64,000 nucleotides of DNA from the NCBI GenBank assembly GCA_030645915.1, contig JAUSNO010000038.1, positions 186,001 through 250,000 on the forward strand, written 5' to 3'. The first letter of the stretch is position 1. Every line of letters starts with the position of its first letter. The notes below the pieces were generated by a model. It ran no database searches. It saw only the letters and a program-made list of their open reading frames with translations, and was not told the DNA's origin. Shown here piece after piece: positions 56,441 to 64,000 of this stretch. Source of the stretch: Undibacterium sp. Lineage in GTDB: Bacteria; Pseudomonadota; Gammaproteobacteria; Burkholderiales; Burkholderiaceae_D. Both the position numbers and the translations under genes were made by a program.

Positions 56441-56752
56441 TCAGGCGCCCTTCATTTGGTTTGATACTGGTTTGAAGTGCTGCGGACTGATTCTGAATTT
56501 TGCCCGGCGATCACCCATGAAGGCGCGCAATTCCTTGATACTGAGATTGGAAATTTCATGCATGCGAATCAAGAGCGAGGCACCGATAGGCAGGCGACGG
56601 TGACGAATTTTGCTGATCACGGGCGGGGCGACTTCGAGTGCCCTGGAAAGCGCGGCATCGTTCTTAAAGTGCAGCTGTTCGATCAGGGTATCTAGTAGAT
56701 TGTCGGGATCGTAACTAAATTCAGAGGTTTTTAAATCGAGTAGGTTTGACAT
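56441..56752 (-). CDS. Helix-turn-helix XRE-like DNA-binding protein
   Basis: A 103-residue protein with an atypical lambda-repressor-like fold. NDAALSRALEVAPPVISKIRHRRLPIGASLLIRMHEISNLSIKELRAFMGD aligns with XRE helices 2-5. A strong AAGGAAG ribosome-binding site precedes its ATG. It stands alone between the R1 repeats. The regulated genes are unknown; candidates are itself and neighbouring accessory genes. Confidence 0.75.
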   Translation of the reverse strand: MSNLLDLKTSEFSYDPDNLLDTLIEQLHFKNDAALSRALEVAPPVISKIRHRRLPIGASLLIRMHEISNLSIKELRAFMGDRRAKFRISPQHFKPVSNQMKGA

Positions 56753-57795: not shown

Positions 57796-57825
57796 TACAT
57801 CAACACTATTTGCACCCCCGCCACT

Positions 57826-57884
57826 ACGCAGCACCCATGCGCCCTGCAGGCCAGGCAGGCTGCAAACCCGCATGGGTATTGCGT
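57826..57884. repeat. Palindromic intergenic repeat, family R1 copy e
   Basis: A 59-bp copy with ends ACGCAGCACCCATGCG and CGCATGGGTATTGCGT, nearly identical in its centre to copy b. It is 25 bp from the proposed prophage terminus. Confidence 0.85.
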
Positions 57885-57909
57885 GAGCGAGGAGCTCATT
57901 TTGCAAAAG

Positions 57910-57990
57910 TGTAACGCCGCGCCGCATTTGGCACCCATTTGCGTAATGTTTGGCACTGCATTTCTCACATTTTAGCGGGTTATTTGTCAC
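57910..57990. mobile_element. Candidate right end (attR) of a Mu-like transposable prophage
   Basis: A TG dinucleotide at 57910 is followed by three direct copies of a 16-bp motif: GCGCCGCATTTGGCAC (57919-57934), GCGTAATGTTTGGCAC (57941-57956) and GCGGGTTATTTGTCAC (57975-57990). Starts are 22 and 34 bp apart. Phage Mu has three transposase sites at its right end with a 22-bp R1-R2 spacing, ends in TG/CA, and carries com-mom next to it. Here com and a methylase lie just inside. The exact boundary is inferred. Confidence 0.6.
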
Positions 57991-57998
57991 CAAAAGTA

Positions 57999-58025
57999 CA
58001 AAAGACCGCACAAGGCGGCCTTTTG
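57999..58025. terminator. Hairpin at the prophage end
   Basis: CAAAAGACCGC pairs with GCGGCCTTTTG (one mismatch) around a short loop. It lies just inside the proposed prophage terminus and could block transcription across it. Confidence 0.5.
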
Positions 58026-58039
58026 TTTAACGCTCACGC

Positions 58040-58071
58040 GGATGCGATATCGGAATCCCGATATCGCATCC
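58040..58071. terminator. Perfect 14-bp hairpin after the 72-residue ORF
   Basis: GGATGCGATATCGG and its exact complement flank a 4-nt loop, immediately past the stop of the small minus-strand ORF. It is likely the end of the late prophage transcript, though no U run follows. Confidence 0.6.
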
Positions 58072-58073
58072 TA

Positions 58074-58292
58074 TCAATTGCGCCATGTATTCGAGTTAAT
58101 TCGAGACCTTGCAAGCTGAATTACTGCATTATCTGCATCAACAATGTTGTTGAAATGCCTTCCTATCGATAACCGCGCCCCTTCCTCATTAGTCGCAATG
58201 TTTATGAGACGTCCGTTAGGAAAAAACACACCAGGCAACTCCTCGTTATGCTCAAACGTTACGCGAAAACCATCTATTTCTACATTTTTCAT
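58074..58292 (-). CDS. Small hypothetical protein at the prophage end (72 aa)
   Basis: No family recognised. The sequence is protein-like (MKNVEIDGFRVTFEHNEELP, later LSIGRHFNNIVDADNAVIQL), with an AAAGG ribosome-binding site at good spacing. It is the last gene before the proposed prophage end, in the same direction as dam and com, and 50 bp beyond dam. It is probably a prophage accessory gene. Confidence 0.5.
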   Translation of the reverse strand: MKNVEIDGFRVTFEHNEELPGVFFPNGRLINIATNEEGARLSIGRHFNNIVDADNAVIQLARSRINSNTWRN

Positions 58293-58342
58293 TTTGACCT
58301 TTCAATATTTGATTAAAGAAAGGACAGCATAGCGTCACGACT

Positions 58343-59134
58343 TCAGAACAGGCTATCCATGATGCTTGGTTCCCAATTCATAATCACCAGCTCCTTGCTC
58401 GTTTCGGGCTGGCCGTGGGTGTTTGATACGCTGTATTTGATGTCTAGGCCCATCATGTGCAGACCGTTAAACGCTTCCCTGATGGCGGGGTGGTCGTTGA
58501 TGCTGACCATAACTTTACCCTTGCACGTACGCATAAAGTCGGCCATTTGTTGGTATTGCTCAAAGCCGAAGTCAACGCCATAGCCCTCGGTCTCCCAGTA
58601 CGGTGGATCGCAATAGAAGAAGGTATGCGGCCTGTCATAGCGCTTCATACAGTCTTGCCAGGTGAGGTTTTCCACGTATGTACCGGATAGGCGTAGGTGT
58701 GCGGCGCTTAACGCTTCTTCTATCCGGCATAGGTTAATCGGTGATCCAGTAGTGGCCGTGCCGAAGTTCTGGCCAGTGACTTTGCCGCCAAAGGCATGCT
58801 GTTGCAGGTAGTAGAATCGGGCGGCGCGCTGGATGTCGGTGAGTGTTTCCAGTGGGGTGTCTTTCTGCCATTTGAAGATTTGGCGGCTACTGATTGCCCA
58901 CTTAAACTGTCTGACGAACTCTTCCAGGTGGTGCTGCACAACTCGGTATAAGTTCACCAGTTCGCCGTTGATATCGTTGATTACCTCTGTGGCCGCTGGG
59001 AATGGCCGCAGGAAATAGAGTGCAGCACCGCCGCAAAATACCTCTACATAGCATTCATGTTTTGGGAAAAGAGGCATGAGCTTATCGGCTAATCGGCGCT
59101 TACCGCCCAGCCACGGGATGATGGGGTTTGTCAT
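58343..59134 (-). CDS. Prophage DNA adenine methylase (Dam-like, D12 class)
   Basis: It N6-methylates adenine in a short target, probably to protect phage DNA or alter host regulation. The SAM motif PWLGGKRRLADKL is at the N-terminus and the catalytic DPPY at residues 176-179; FCGGAALYF and the final block (KELVIMNW) are also typical. It has 263 residues. Its start lies 35 bp inside the com gene, behind an AGGAG ribosome-binding site, so it is probably translationally coupled to and activated by Com. The recognition sequence cannot be read from sequence alone. Confidence 0.9.
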   Translation of the reverse strand: MTNPIIPWLGGKRRLADKLMPLFPKHECYVEVFCGGAALYFLRPFPAATEVINDINGELVNLYRVVQHHLEEFVRQFKWAISSRQIFKWQKDTPLETLTDIQRAARFYYLQQHAFGGKVTGQNFGTATTGSPINLCRIEEALSAAHLRLSGTYVENLTWQDCMKRYDRPHTFFYCDPPYWETEGYGVDFGFEQYQQMADFMRTCKGKVMVSINDHPAIREAFNGLHMMGLDIKYSVSNTHGQPETSKELVIMNWEPSIMDSLF

Positions 59135-59291
59135 TACTTGTTACTCCTAATGACGCTCCTGGGCGTTCTGGATGGGCGCTCACGGCACTCAATTGATTCA
59201 ATGTATTACATCGCGGGCATTTTATATTGAGCCTTTGATATTCACCTTCGCCTAATTTTTTATGACAATTGCCACAACGAATTTCTATCAT
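59100..59291 (-). CDS. com: Com-family translational activator
   Basis: A 63-residue zinc-finger RNA-binding protein of the phage Mu Com family. Four Cys in two pairs (IRCGNCHKKL at 6/9 and IKCPRCN at 25/28) match Mu Com, which binds and unfolds the mom mRNA leader so that mom can be translated. Here it overlaps the start of a DNA adenine methylase rather than mom. An AGGGGC ribosome-binding site precedes the ATG. The C-terminal third is disordered and partly encoded in the overlap. Confidence 0.88.
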   Translation of the reverse strand: MIEIRCGNCHKKLGEGEYQRLNIKCPRCNTLNQLSAVSAHPERPGASLGVTSNDKPHHPVAGR

Positions 59292-59422
59292 TTAACGCCC
59301 CTGTGCTAAGATTCGCCGCCTCCGTACGGGGTGGCAGAGCCTTGGTTTGTGCGCAGGCATTCACTGCAATCGAACGACTAAAACGGTGTTGACGCATCGT
59401 CTTAGTCGCTCTGTTCTTATTA
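59292..59422. other. Gap upstream of com with a hairpin
   Basis: About 130 bp between the tail gene and com. CGACTAAAACG and CGTCTTAGTCG (59375-59408) pair with one mismatch around a 12-nt loop. It could terminate the tail transcript or lie in the com leader, where Mu-type control would be expected. Confidence 0.4.
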
Positions 59423-59644
59423 CTAAATATCGATTACTTCTACCGTTAAATTCGGTGCATTGCCTTCAATCACCCCATCGCGCACAAATACTTTCTGACC
59501 TATTGATGACGTGCCACGACCAGTTACTTGCCCGCCACCTGGCAAGGTTATTAAACAGTGGCCGGACAAGACAGCGGTAACTGTACCGACCAGCAATGGT
59601 GCATCTGGAATCAAATCCTTAAATACTCGGTATAGATTAGCCAT
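59423..59644 (-). CDS. Small phage tail-associated protein (73 aa)
   Basis: A short protein (MANLYRVFKDLIPDAPLLVG) with a beta-rich middle and a GGGQVTGRG loop, resembling small OB-fold tail or baseplate components. It overlaps the preceding 626-residue tail gene by 8 bp. Function is inferred from position only. Confidence 0.6.
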   Translation of the reverse strand: MANLYRVFKDLIPDAPLLVGTVTAVLSGHCLITLPGGGQVTGRGTSSIGQKVFVRDGVIEGNAPNLTVEVIDI

Positions 59645-61517
59645 AGGTCTGCACCTCTATTGTTTGACGCGCTGTTGCTTCACTGGCGCTGATTGACACG
59701 CTCTTAACGACACCTATAATCGCAGTGCCGTCGACATAACGAACCAGCGTGCCTGGATCGATAATTCCCGTCTCTGGCAACACTGGCAGGCTGAGCGAAT
59801 ATGTTGCAGAGCGCCCCGTATCGGCTAACAGAGAAAGACCGCGCTGTCTGGCAGCTATCGCATCGGTAATTAATGCATCAGTCACCATTGGGGCGATCAC
59901 ATCACCAGCCGACCCAATACGCTTAACGTGTCCTAAAACGCCGCCAGCAGTAGATCCGCTGATGTAAATCGCGTTATATGCAGGCTTATCGATCCATGCA
60001 ATCGACTCTTTAACGATCGCTGCAGATGGCAACTCCAGATCAGGCGTGGCGGCGTTCCATTCCCATGGCTTAGCTGGGAAGCGTGGCCGCACCCGCAATG
60101 TCTTATTGACCGGATCTGGCTGGATGAATGCGCCAGCTGCAGCTGCAATGGTTGTCACCGCCCCCATGTAAGAGCCTTGGTAAGTCCAGACGCCGGAAGG
60201 TACCAGCCAATCATCAATGCGCCAATCGACCGCCCAACCCAGCGTTACACCGTTAAACATGAGCGCATCATTCATCAACTGCTGGGCTGTTCTATCGATG
60301 GTATTGGTGAAGCTTAGGATCGGGCTGTATGGGTCTGCCAGCATGGCCGATTGGCCTCTGCCTGTCACCGTAATCGATGACTTACCAAATATGCGATCGC
60401 GTTGAATACCCTCTGCCAGCAGTAAATAAACGCTGCCATTAATGGTCGCCTCCAATATCACTGGGTCACCAGATACACCAGGCTCTATCAAAGGCAGTGT
60501 TGCTGCTGGTAGCGAGGCAGAGAATCCCCATGTCCAACTGTCCATATCAATATTGAGACTGAGGGACACGTCCGGCAAAATGTGGTTGCCATCCACGCGT
60601 CTTAAGCTAACTTCATTGATCACGATATAGGTTCTCCTGAATGGTACGACCTGAGTTGCTGGTGGCACCGCATGTGCGGCGCAATAAAACAAGATGTCGG
60701 TGCTGTTGACATAAGGATCTGAAAACAGCAATGGAACATTCAATCCATGCGGCGGGTGATAGCACACCTCTGCGGGTATGACTGGCGTTACCCATGTATA
60801 GGTACCAGGAGGCGGTTTTTTGGCGTTTTGCCAATGGCTTGTTTTGCTGATTGCCAAAAATTTGGCCTTGCCAGCGCGTGTCGTAATGTCTTTTTGTTTT
60901 TTAACAGCTAAGCCCCATGTTGATGCAATGGTTGGCCTAGGCACTCTTAATTTATCTTGATATGAAGATTGCACCTGATGAGCAACAGGTATGGCGACTT
61001 GGTTTTTCGACTGGCTCGCATTGCGCAATCTAAGCATGCTAGAAAAGATACTTTTTCGTTCGCTTTTAACCTGGTCGGCTTCTTTCCAAGACGTTGAATT
61101 GTTTGCCTTAGTCGATATTGCTGACAATATCACCATCGAAGTTGAATTACTCATGACGCTACCAGGCTGCCACACAGACTGTTTATCCGTATGAATATGG
61201 TCTACCGATTCGACACGATCTTCAGTTGCCTTTGCCAGCACGCTTGCAATGTTCCATTTATTGGCAGCCTCACCAGCTGGACCACGATAGACAGCGTTGT
61301 CATACACCATACTTGCACTCATGGCGGGTACCGGCACTGTGGCGACGATAGCTAACTTTGCGACATCAATGATATGGCCTGATACAGTTGGCGGCGGCAC
61401 AACCGCTGACATCGTTAAATACGAATACGTGATCGCAGCTTCATCGCCCGCGCCAAACGTTAAGTTGACAGGGTGAACTGTGTTTAACGCACTCGCAAAT
61501 AGTAAGTCAGTTGCCAC
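59637..61517 (-). CDS. Phage tail protein (626 aa), probable tail-tip/hub component
   Basis: A large structural protein. The N-terminal region begins TDLLFASALNTVHPVNLTFGAG, a style seen in tail-tip proteins of transposable siphophages. The middle carries Lys/Ser-rich stretches, and the C-terminal 250 residues look like a hub or baseplate domain (IQPDPVNKTLRVRPRFPAKPWEW, SLLADTGRSATYSLSLP). The start is GTG, four bases after the upstream gene. It lies between the small tail genes and the 73-residue gene. Confidence 0.75.
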   Translation of the reverse strand: MATDLLFASALNTVHPVNLTFGAGDEAAITYSYLTMSAVVPPPTVSGHIIDVAKLAIVATVPVPAMSASMVYDNAVYRGPAGEAANKWNIASVLAKATEDRVESVDHIHTDKQSVWQPGSVMSNSTSMVILSAISTKANNSTSWKEADQVKSERKSIFSSMLRLRNASQSKNQVAIPVAHQVQSSYQDKLRVPRPTIASTWGLAVKKQKDITTRAGKAKFLAISKTSHWQNAKKPPPGTYTWVTPVIPAEVCYHPPHGLNVPLLFSDPYVNSTDILFYCAAHAVPPATQVVPFRRTYIVINEVSLRRVDGNHILPDVSLSLNIDMDSWTWGFSASLPAATLPLIEPGVSGDPVILEATINGSVYLLLAEGIQRDRIFGKSSITVTGRGQSAMLADPYSPILSFTNTIDRTAQQLMNDALMFNGVTLGWAVDWRIDDWLVPSGVWTYQGSYMGAVTTIAAAAGAFIQPDPVNKTLRVRPRFPAKPWEWNAATPDLELPSAAIVKESIAWIDKPAYNAIYISGSTAGGVLGHVKRIGSAGDVIAPMVTDALITDAIAARQRGLSLLADTGRSATYSLSLPVLPETGIIDPGTLVRYVDGTAIIGVVKSVSISASEATARQTIEVQTYG

Positions 61518-61521
61518 GGTA

Positions 61522-61935
61522 TCAGCCGCCCTCGGCTATCAGTGCAGAAACCAAGACGACGAAGCCACCCGCGAAGACGGTTGAATTATCGACCAGATAG
61601 TCAGCAATAGCGGCATCTGGGTCACCTGGCATGCGGACATCACCATCCATCACAAAATTATCGTCACCATCGGCAGTGCGGCACCAGTCGATCAAACCAC
61701 TGCTAGCAACCTGTGACGGCCCCGACACAGACAGATGCAGACCAGCGGCATCGACGGTACCGCAAGGGTAAGTGAGGTCAAAACTGCATAATGGCGCAGC
61801 GGCGGGTGCAGCTCCTTTAGCTACCCGCGGGGCAGCATAACAATGCATTTTCGCTGCGGTTCCGGCAGCATCAATATCGGCTTTTCTGGCATTAGACACT
61901 GACTGTTTTTGACGCGATGAAATACCTAAAGTCAT
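61522..61935 (-). CDS. Phage structural protein (137 aa), unknown
   Basis: A 137-residue protein; ATG start overlapping the upstream 120-residue gene by 4 bp. It has a long Ala/Gly-rich N-terminal half (GTAAKMHCYAAPRVAKGAAPAAAP) and a beta-rich C-terminal half. No named family recognised; a tail role is inferred from its place between tail genes. Confidence 0.65.
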   Translation of the reverse strand: MTLGISSRQKQSVSNARKADIDAAGTAAKMHCYAAPRVAKGAAPAAAPLCSFDLTYPCGTVDAAGLHLSVSGPSQVASSGLIDWCRTADGDDNFVMDGDVRMPGDPDAAIADYLVDNSTVFAGGFVVLVSALIAEGG

Positions 61936-62294
61936 GCGACCTCCGGCATGATGCTGTCTTTAATGACTGCGTTAAAATTGCCGGTGTGGTCGTGCGAAAC
62001 TACGTAATAAAGCTGGATAGCAAGCCCCGCGAACGCATACGACCCATCCGCCGCGCTCCACATTTCACGCACCAGCATGCCGTCTATTTTACGGTGCAAA
62101 CGTACGCGTCTAGCTACCGGAGTGTCCGGCGAACCTTTATCCTTTACCGTACCGGAAACTATACCCCGCCCCCCGTGGTTCACGTCCCGAAACATAATGG
62201 GTAGTCTGGTACCTTTAAAGTTTACGGCGGGACGAGTGACGCGTGCCAGCGCCACCAACGTAGACGCTAACACCGCTTTTGTGTGGGACGCCAT
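61932..62294 (-). CDS. Phage structural protein with carboxypeptidase-like beta domain (120 aa)
   Basis: The segment RGIVSGTVKDKGSPDTPVARRVRLHRKIDGMLVREMWSAADGSYAFAGLA has the look of a carboxypeptidase regulatory/Ig-like beta sandwich found in tail proteins. Its stop overlaps the next gene by 4 bp, and it starts 3 bp after the 393-residue gene. Base usage here is unlike neighbouring tail genes. Confidence 0.65.
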   Translation of the reverse strand: MASHTKAVLASTLVALARVTRPAVNFKGTRLPIMFRDVNHGGRGIVSGTVKDKGSPDTPVARRVRLHRKIDGMLVREMWSAADGSYAFAGLAIQLYYVVSHDHTGNFNAVIKDSIMPEVA

Positions 62295-62297
62295 ACC

Positions 62298-63479
62298 CTA
62301 CCCCCAGGGTCCAGTAATGTCGAAAAACATAACCCCTATAAGCGGGGAACCCCCACAGGTAACAGCCTTTAGCGTTCGCCCAGGAAGCCCCGTTACCCCC
62401 ATTACGGAATCCCTAGTAGCGAATTGCCCGTCCGCTACAGCTTGAGGACATCCGTACGCCCCAGGCACGCTCCCCCTGAGTGTCCCCGCCATGCCCTCCA
62501 CAATGAACTGGGGGGACACGTACAATCCCCCGTCGGCATAGTTAGGGTATGGGATAGTCGCGTTACTTCCTCCTGAGTCCCACGCCAGCGTAGAGGGGCA
62601 CGGGTGCACGAAGTTTCTTTTTAGCTGAAGCGAATATCCCAAGGCGGTGTAACTTCGGGACATATACCATTCTGCCAAGGTGTTGGGTGACGACCCCCAA
62701 AGCTGGTTAGCCGTAACTGCGCCGCCCGAGGATACGTTACCCAACATGCCCGTAACAAAAGAACAAAACGCGTCCCCCGCTTTAAGCGAAACGCAGTCCC
62801 CGAAAGCGGTAATTTCATTGCTAGTCAGGTATGAGTCCTGATACGTCCGAGAAAACGAAAAAAACTTACCATTGGCCACTAATACCCAGCCTCTAGCAGC
62901 TGACGTGGTTAGGTTACTCTTAGACCACCACAACCCCCCCGTTCTTTGCAATTCCGTAGGGAACCCCGCGGTCCCGGTATCCACGTCCACCATGCTTTCG
63001 TACCCCATCACGCGGGCTGTTTGTGTGGTAGCGTCGTTCACCCTTAGATAGTGCCCTGTTGCCGTTACGTCGGTGGCTTTGTACGCAGCTTTGTTCGTGC
63101 CAGAAAACGCCTTAGACCATCCGGCCGGTGCCATTTTTACGGTAATAGTTCCAGTTGCCGTCTGGTCGGTTATGCCCGTGGTGGCGAACGACGCCGAGTT
63201 AGACCCTACGGCCGTGATTTTCTGTTCGCCGTTTAACGCGGCAGGGGTAGCGCCTGTAACCAGCACCACCGCGCCCACTTCGCCGGTAATTCCCGTGCTG
63301 ACGTTGATCGTTGCCACATTGGATGCAACAACTAGGCTATCCACGCTTTTTAACGCGAAACCATTCACTAGGCACGCATCTAACACCGCAATCAGCGAGC
63401 CCGCTAAACCGCTTAAAACGGGCGCGCCAACCATGCCTGAATGAAAATATTTAACGCTTGTATCTACCGGTGAAGTCAT
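62298..63479 (-). CDS. Phage tail-region protein (393 aa), unknown
   Basis: An uncharacterised structural-type protein beginning MTSPVDTSVKYFHSGMVGAP. The first 110 residues contain a beta repeat domain (VVASNVATINVSTGITGEVGAVVLVTG). The later part is Gly/Ser/Tyr-rich (WWSKSNLTTSAARGWVLVANGKFF), suggesting a beta-structured virion protein. Its coding sequence contains many CCC/GGG runs and rarely used codons compared with the flanking tail genes, pointing to a module of different origin. It lies between two tail genes with short gaps. Confidence 0.7.
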   Translation of the reverse strand: MTSPVDTSVKYFHSGMVGAPVLSGLAGSLIAVLDACLVNGFALKSVDSLVVASNVATINVSTGITGEVGAVVLVTGATPAALNGEQKITAVGSNSASFATTGITDQTATGTITVKMAPAGWSKAFSGTNKAAYKATDVTATGHYLRVNDATTQTARVMGYESMVDVDTGTAGFPTELQRTGGLWWSKSNLTTSAARGWVLVANGKFFSFSRTYQDSYLTSNEITAFGDCVSLKAGDAFCSFVTGMLGNVSSGGAVTANQLWGSSPNTLAEWYMSRSYTALGYSLQLKRNFVHPCPSTLAWDSGGSNATIPYPNYADGGLYVSPQFIVEGMAGTLRGSVPGAYGCPQAVADGQFATRDSVMGVTGLPGRTLKAVTCGGSPLIGVMFFDITGPWG

Positions 63480-63503
63480 TTGTATTTCTCCTATTAAGGG
63501 TGA

Positions 63504-64000
63504 TTAAGGGCGATCAATATCGCCGCGAATCAAAATCGTGAATGCGTCATCTTGTGCAGTCGCTGGACCTTGCTGAATGGTACGAGTGACCCATACTGGA
63601 TATAGGGCACCAACTGTATTGAATCTCAACACATTACCGGCTGCCCAGCCTGTGCCCCAGCCTATTGCGGGGATAGAAAAGTAAGCTGAACCATGCGAAG
63701 GATTGATCGGTGAGCAGTCCGCTGCAGTGTTGCCGGTTGCGATAACACCAACGTGCTCGCCAATCACTTCAAAACTGTTTGTATTTGTAAAGCGGATCAC
63801 CCAACGCTCACTAATTGCGCCACCGTTTGTCACAGCAATGGGGGCAAGCACATCGTTAAATGTGGCGGTGGCAGCAGAGCCGACTTGTGTATCGGTAAAG
63901 AGTGAATTCCACGTTGCCTGATCAAATATCAACGGGACTCGCGCTTTCATGTCAGCAACAATGAGGGCTGAGCTAATGAATGAGCCAATGGGGAAATCAT
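63504..64000 (-). CDS. Phage protein, start outside the window (partial)
   Basis: A tail-region protein whose C-terminal 148 residues from an internal Met are MKARVPLIFDQATWNSLFTD onward. The frame remains open through that Met to the window edge, and the upstream residues (DFPIGSFISSALIVAD) look like real protein. The true start therefore probably lies beyond 64000. No named domain recognised; position among tail genes is the only functional hint. Confidence 0.65.
   Translation of the reverse strand, partial: DFPIGSFISSALIVADMKARVPLIFDQATWNSLFTDTQVGSAATATFNDVLAPIAVTNGGAISERWVIRFTNTNSFEVIGEHVGVIATGNTAADCSPINPSHGSAYFSIPAIGWGTGWAAGNVLRFNTVGALYPVWVTRTIQQGPATAQDDAFTILIRGDIDRP

Follow-up and report, generated by a model that had tools for sequence, protein, structure and literature searches.

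The right end of Escherichia phage Mu (Muvirus) carries three end sites, the first two of which, R1 and R2, are 22 bp apart, and transposable phages of the D3112 group form inducible, infectious siphovirus particles and generate a 5-bp target duplication. Genomes of the D3112 group start with TGT and end with ACA, and for the D3112-group phage Ab30, insertion hotspots are reported 54 to 60 bp from REP/BIME motifs, together with a discussion of gyrase and IHF at BIMEs (PMC5977238). Pseudomonas phage B3 (Beetrevirus) is reported to duplicate 6 bp at its target (PMC8705779). Mu reportedly avoids mature tRNA genes and inserts in the leader and trailer sequences of pre-tRNAs (PMC7350765). The 3′ flanks of tRNA genes are reached by Tn7-like elements via TnsD/TniQ, and the CRISPR-associated transposon CyCAST inserts 30 to 33 nt downstream of a tRNA gene (both PMC10293859).

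The window, i.e., the whole stretch of DNA that was analysed, comprises 64 kb (C39:186001-250000) of a 4.17-Mb draft genome, and its contig C39 extends to position 298853. It contains the right end of a D3112/MP22-type prophage, for which a set of 17 prophages makes non-random target capture likely. The features of the insertion point and of the adjoining prophage are as follows:

57833-57877, no strand assigned: host REP-like hairpin repeat ACCCATGCG...CGCATGGGT, 45 nt, adjoining the insertion point
57905-57909, plus strand: target-site duplication AAAAG, with its other copy at C39:282787-282791
57910-57912, plus strand: prophage right terminus, TGT read inward, resembling the MP22 and B3 right ends, with a 5-bp duplication
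57910-64000, minus strand: part of the prophage inside the window; the whole prophage is C39:243910-282786, 38,877 bp
57919-57934, plus strand: transposase-type end site R1
57941-57956, plus strand: transposase-type end site R2
57975-57990, plus strand: transposase-type end site R3
58074-58292, minus strand: 72-aa open reading frame separating the methylase gene from the right end, without family match
58343-59134, minus strand: D12-class N6-adenine DNA methyltransferase (PF02086, E 4.4e-25; phrog_56, E 3e-101)
59100-59291, minus strand: Com-like zinc-ribbon regulator (PF10122, E 7.6e-13; phrog_6417, E 2.8e-18)
59637-61517, minus strand: phage tail protein (phrog_6079, E 5.7e-134)

A preliminary description of the window had reported three 16-bp repeats at 57919, 57941 and 57975, and all three are matched by the pattern GCGNNNNDTTTGKCAC, which occurs exactly three times in the 64 kb, always on the plus strand. 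Shuffled sequence gave a mean of 0.10 matches and three or more matches in 0 of 100 shuffles; this chance figure is somewhat flattering because the pattern was drawn up with the sites already in view. The R1-R2 offset is 22 bp, as in Mu, the R2-R3 offset is 34 bp, and the TG announced for 57910 is present at 57910-57911. In the end alignment, the right terminus begins with TGTAACGCCGCGCCGCATTTGGCACCCATTTGCGTAAT, the counterpart of which in MP22 and B3 is TGTAGCGCGGCGCGAAATTTGGCGCGGATTTGCGCAAT. The left terminus lies at L010:18987 (C39:282786) and starts, read inward, with TGTGAGGGGGTGATTGTTTTGTCCC, the MP22 counterpart being TGTGGGGAGGTGACTGTTTTGACAC. An initial candidate for the left end, a 7-bp repeat GCAAAAG near L010:18996, gave way to TGTGAGGGGG at L010:18987, to which the left end of MP22 aligned. 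The left end carries a site L1 at bases 10-25, the same offset as that of R1; two of its sites are direct, at bases 10 and 146, and one is inverted, at base 88, whereas R3 starts at base 66 of the right end. The five bases preceding the right end, AAAAG, are repeated directly after the left end. The opposite end with the same motif and a target duplication, which the preliminary description had proposed as a check, was thus found, and the host-phage boundary, which had been placed within a few bases, is fixed to the base by the partner end and the duplication: 57910 is the first base of the prophage right terminus.

The preliminary description had also inferred that the right end is inverted in the window and that the phage body extends past 64000. 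The body does continue in C39, and the gene for the MuA-type transposase (734 aa, phrog_310) lies near the far, left end, which fits a right end in inverted orientation; the late genes are transcribed toward the right end. Tail and head genes were recognised with PHROGs, and the genes beyond the window include those for the portal, terminase, Mor, GemA, regulators, an AAA+ transposition protein and a Ner-like repressor, as well as a 153-aa protein on the opposite strand that weakly matches the Mu DNA-binding domain. The AAA+ partner, which is encoded near the left end, matches phrog_296 ('DNA transposition protein') and has a TniB Pfam score of 27.6 bits (cutoff 22.4), its best match being AAA_22. 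No TniQ-like or other dedicated target selector was recognised among 14 left-half proteins compared with Pfam and 11 non-structural proteins compared with PHROGs, a comparison that distant relatives could escape. At the right end, a com-mom module had been expected as the last module of the phage. The com-like gene is real (PF10122); its partner, however, encodes a D12-class adenine methylase (PF02086), and no mom is present. The two genes overlap by 35 bp at the methylase start, and the RNA fold of this start region is unremarkable (z -0.94). A similar methylase was seen by reading at the corresponding place in L056.

Judged by its ends, its duplication length and its transposase, the prophage belongs with the D3112/MP22 type. 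The transposase is 49% identical to the HW12 and MP22 transposases over 96% (tblastn), and because both termini resemble those of MP22 as well, the prophage is D3112-like and not Mu proper. Hence, of the earlier label 'Mu-like transposable prophage', the transposable phage end stands and the Mu type gives way to D3112/MP22. TGT...ACA ends are common to the prophage and the Pseudomonas phages D3112, MP22 (Casadabanvirus), HW12, 2P1 and Ab30; the MP22 and D3112 records, however, have other genes at the right end, where the prophage has com and the D12 methylase. The right end of B3 is almost identical to that of MP22 and resembles that of the prophage, but in contrast to the 6-bp duplication of B3, only the 5 bp AAAAG are duplicated here, and the base preceding AAAAG differs. 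With Mu, the prophage shares the three end sites, the 5-bp duplication, a com-like gene and relatives of GemA and Mor; it differs in having a D12 methylase beside com and no mom. The prophage by itself is nothing unusual and adds one more member to the D3112 type. The deposited D3112 record (NC_005178; L059, L030) seems to be about 113 bases short of the MP22/B3 right terminus and to begin three bases ahead of TGTGGGG.

D3112 and MP22 have Pseudomonas hosts, whereas the host of this prophage, probably Undibacterium-like, belongs to another genus, and its relatives outside Pseudomonas often lie behind tRNA genes. These relatives were collected by transposase searches in 392 genomes of the family, 43 of the genus, 399 of the order and 369 of the class (overlapping sets, own genome included), which yielded 30 transposase places in 29 genomes (14, 12 and 4 at E limits of 1e-20, 1e-100 and 1e-90). 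Both ends could be placed for 15 prophages and later for G377 and Neisseriaceae JH1-16 (L107 with L197; from genome contigs), which gives 17, own prophage included. Left out of the both-ended set were G123, G212, G277, G372, G508 and G706; G488, G509, G1015 and G620:C37, which have a left end only; G522, G620:C3 and G938, which have no clear end pair; and G578, which has two right ends with a non-matching duplication. The latter two ends are 228 bp apart (L145:9157 and 9385) near a tmRNA gene, an instance of repeated use of a landing spot. Among matches to the tail protein, G374 (right end only), G018 and G020 were left out, and no end was found by likeness in G054, G011 and G090.

An exact 5-bp duplication is present in 17 of the 17 both-ended prophages, and a 6-bp match was found in 0 of the 12 tested. 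The duplications in the first 15 are AAAAG, GGCGG, CTCTG, CCTCC, CTCTC, ATTTG, GTTGA, CTTGC, GCCGC, TTCTC, GTGCT, GCCAC, ACATC, CGTGC and TGAAG, the last of which (G1044) is not an independent match because its left end was located through the duplication; those of the later pairs are CTGTA (G377, ends on two contigs) and CAGGC (JH1-16). In the 15 prophages, a leave-one-out weight matrix, which omits each tested prophage but uses the same offsets in the others, placed a site at right-end base 10 (R1) in 14 and at base 32 (R2) in 13, offsets that are partly built in because the ends were sought by likeness to the own and MP22 ends. A third right-end site (R3) was found at 66-67 in four and at 77-78 in another four of the 15. 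At the left end, the same matrix placed L1 at base 10 in 13 of 15 and a further site at 141-147 in 11 of 15, offsets that are likewise partly built in; no site was found in G1044. At the same threshold, 42 matches occur in 31 kb of phage DNA, and single weak matrix matches therefore mean little. The exact ends and their geometry provide a simple rule for locating such prophages.

When the flanks were analysed with ARAGORN, a tRNA gene was found 42 to 201 bp outside an end in 10 of the 15 prophages, hence in 10 of 17 with the later pairs, the 201-bp limit having been chosen post hoc from the data in hand. In all ten cases, the 3′ side of the tRNA gene faces the phage:

right end: G269, 98 bp, Lys
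right end: G364, 87 bp, Glu
right end: G385, 201 bp, Phe
right end: G204, 114 bp, Lys
right end: G767, 86 bp, Lys
right end: G611, 111 bp, Lys
right end: G200, 86 bp, Asn
right end: G1038, 42 bp, Ser
left end: G143, 99 bp, His
left end: G1044, 72 bp, Ser

The bias toward the right end (eight to two) is not significant. One genus contributes four of the 15 prophages. G269 and G204 apparently share a tRNA-Lys locus, although their duplications and their distances from it differ. Five of the 15 have no ARAGORN tRNA within the limit. Two of these, the own prophage and that of G006, lie beside REP-like repeats. G397 is located behind a 3′ remnant of tRNA-Phe, which was seen by eye and not called by ARAGORN, G568 lies 699 bp from a tRNA-Lys gene, and G419 has neither a nearby tRNA nor a repeated flank. 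In G568, a YefM/YoeB-type toxin-antitoxin-like cassette (L130:8419-9117; by eye) occupies the space between tRNA-Lys and the prophage right end. In G397, the prophage interrupts an R1 site that belongs to a relic right end of this phage type (L095:12306, L094:3578; by eye). Of the later pairs, G377 has a tRNA-Ser gene 304 bp away, and JH1-16 has no tRNA in its 1.5-kb right flank and a perfect palindrome 68 bp away. The right end of G374 is flanked by a dispersed repeat, and 2.2 kb there contain no tRNA. A dispersed MITE-like repeat was observed in G374 and G377, which belong to the same genus (L148-L151); the G374 right end apparently falls within one copy of it.

For the own prophage, no tRNA gene is present in 57.9 kb of the window on the right-end side or in 1.0 kb on the left-end side. 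An Rfam search of 1.3 kb around the insertion, with E values up to 1, gave one match far below the gathering score; at the gathering level, nothing was found in the G374 right-end locus or the G006 left-end locus. The prophage is inserted about 32 bp from the REP-like hairpin, which has 11 perfect copies in the genome, the one at 57833-57877 included (each palindrome is listed on both strands). At least 39 other places in the genome match 50 to 90 bp around the hairpin (BLAST; 40 of 219 candidates scored), and the region 57800-57909 has a fold z of -3.47 as single-stranded DNA. Many matches to the REP-like family also occur in G006, G014 and G016. In G006, a member of this family lies about 28 bp from the prophage, C168:13851-13931 of that genome matches both REP queries, and comparison with other copies places the prophage five bases inside an insertion-sequence tip. 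These two REP-adjacent insertions fit the published REP hotspots of Ab30.

The strongest alternative is that a plain D3112-type end inserts at random and that the tRNA and REP neighbours reflect the survival of harmless insertions in intergenic regions and behind terminators. The 3′ flanks of tRNA genes are classical safe insertion sites, every site in the set comes from an established prophage, and prophages are survivors, so that harmless sites are over-represented among them. Furthermore, about 95% of the Ab30 insertion events looked random (PMC5977238). We nevertheless regard this explanation as unlikely. In the 12 genomes with tRNA counts, the 201-bp 3′ flanks make up about 0.1-0.3% of the genomes, and 7 sites lie within this post hoc limit downstream of a tRNA gene versus 0.027 expected; even if a tenfold enrichment for harmless DNA is assumed, P is about 3e-8 for 7 of 12. 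The distances are also tight, with 7 of 10 in 72-111 bp and 9 of 10 in 42-114 bp. In a Mu control, which was limited to the right flank and to one host species, E. coli, a tRNA gene was found in the 600-bp right flank at 0 of 18 distinct sites, unlike in the 15 prophages, own included, for which the right side alone gives 8 of 15 (Fisher p 4.6e-4). For this control, 20 of 60 listed matches (66 genomes matched) that reach the Mu right end were taken, chosen ahead of any tRNA search.

A second set came from a search with the right-end pattern in 14 genomes, for 5 of which the first searches had given matches but no complete pair. A tRNA gene within 304 bp, its 3′ side facing the end, was found at 6 of 10 right-end-like loci (75, 130, 141, 153, 203 and 304 bp), which were picked by eye and include a locus, that at 141 bp (L183, the same as L114), known beforehand to lie near a tRNA gene. 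G377 and JH1-16 (L178, L197) are also members of the set of 17 and are the only two with a matched duplication. At 14 non-end control loci of the same search, a tRNA gene within 304 bp on either side was found in 0 of 14, with one undetermined tRNA-like call at 342 bp. A generic hairpin-energy test for a common cue was negative, with a mean of -22.3 versus -21.7 in 560 controls. A perfect stem of at least 8 within 110 bp is present at 7 of 15 sites versus 62 of 1120 controls (p 1e-5); this result adds little beyond the tRNA result because all seven stems are terminators behind tRNA genes (in G397, behind the tRNA remnant) and the REP hairpins of the own and G006 sites fail the criterion.

It could also be argued that the phages accumulate in flexible, tRNA-proximal islands placed by tyrosine integrases, without choosing tRNA genes themselves. 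G578 lies 292 bp from a tmRNA gene, where it interrupts the beginning of an integrase-like gene, the L190 flank begins an integrase-like reading frame next to a tRNA gene (both by eye), and layered phage ends occur in G397 and L195. The closest junctions, however, follow the tRNA terminator, 42-114 bp from the tRNA gene, which would leave little room for an integrase gene; we consider this explanation improbable, more so than survival. A chance origin of the three sites, or a host repeat in place of a phage end, is practically impossible and is refuted by the partner left end and the target duplication, as well as contradicted by the likeness to the MP22 and B3 ends and the same layout in relatives.

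Steered landing is the best reading of the tRNA and REP neighbours. In the proposed mechanism, transposase bound at R1-R3 and L1-L3 would pair the ends, a MuB/TniB-like AAA+ protein would capture the target, and the duplication would arise from strand transfer staggered by 5 bp. The complex would favour a short stretch immediately 3′ of tRNA genes or next to dispersed REP-like hairpins. Either the AAA+ partner or another, accessory protein of the phage would recognise the candidate cue, which is probably a local DNA or nucleoid feature common to such loci. What these loci have in common is short and strong transcription units or palindromes, and the preferred candidates are supercoiling or gyrase binding on the 3′ side of such units, or hairpin extrusion. 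It appears somewhat more probable than not that there is a D3112-type clade outside Pseudomonas that duplicates 5 bp on landing about 40-200 bp 3′ of tRNA genes of varied specificity or beside abundant REP-like hairpins, without a TniQ-type selector. Tn7-like and CRISPR-associated tRNA-homing transposons share the DDE transposase, the AAA+ partner and the short distance downstream of a tRNA gene; however, they depend on TniQ/TnsD selectors or guide RNAs, none of which were recognised here in the comparisons with Pfam and PHROGs, and the distances found here are longer and looser.

If true, steered landing would mean that these phages had arrived at tRNA homing independently of Tn7-like elements. 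Near-random insertion is what textbooks describe for Mu-like phages, and a steered clade would show how a MuA/MuB-type machine acquires site preference; it would also tie the Ab30 REP hotspots to a wider rule, which can be checked by sequencing of phage junctions. Since Mu reportedly samples pre-tRNA leader and trailer sequences (PMC7350765), a mild preference could predate the clade and extend beyond it. In the open-licence literature, searched mostly by title and abstract, no report of tRNA-adjacent targeting by Mu-like phages was found. Landing in tRNA 3′ flanks is known for Tn7-like elements and, as far as the literature was searched, is new for Mu-like phages.

The preliminary description had named an uninterrupted copy of the junction in strains lacking the phage genes as a finding that would speak against a prophage end; no such empty site was found in 40 related genomes. 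Eight of the 40 possess a relative of the neighbouring oxygenase gene with 67-73% DNA identity, and one of the eight shows, 135 bp from the oxygenase gene, 49 residues that weakly match the end of the host gene on the other side, which is a hint of the gene order of an empty site and nothing beyond that. A MITE-like element of about 100 bp with inverted repeats (L010:19031-19134, C39:282830-282933) separates the left end from the host gene that follows and has nine further places in the genome. Two similar DNA-binding-like proteins of 103 aa are encoded on either side of the prophage (56441-56752 and L011:692-1003), about 1.2 kb and about 1.7 kb from its ends. At L195, several right-end motifs lie within about 110 bp near a tRNA-Ser gene, which represents repeated use of one landing spot.
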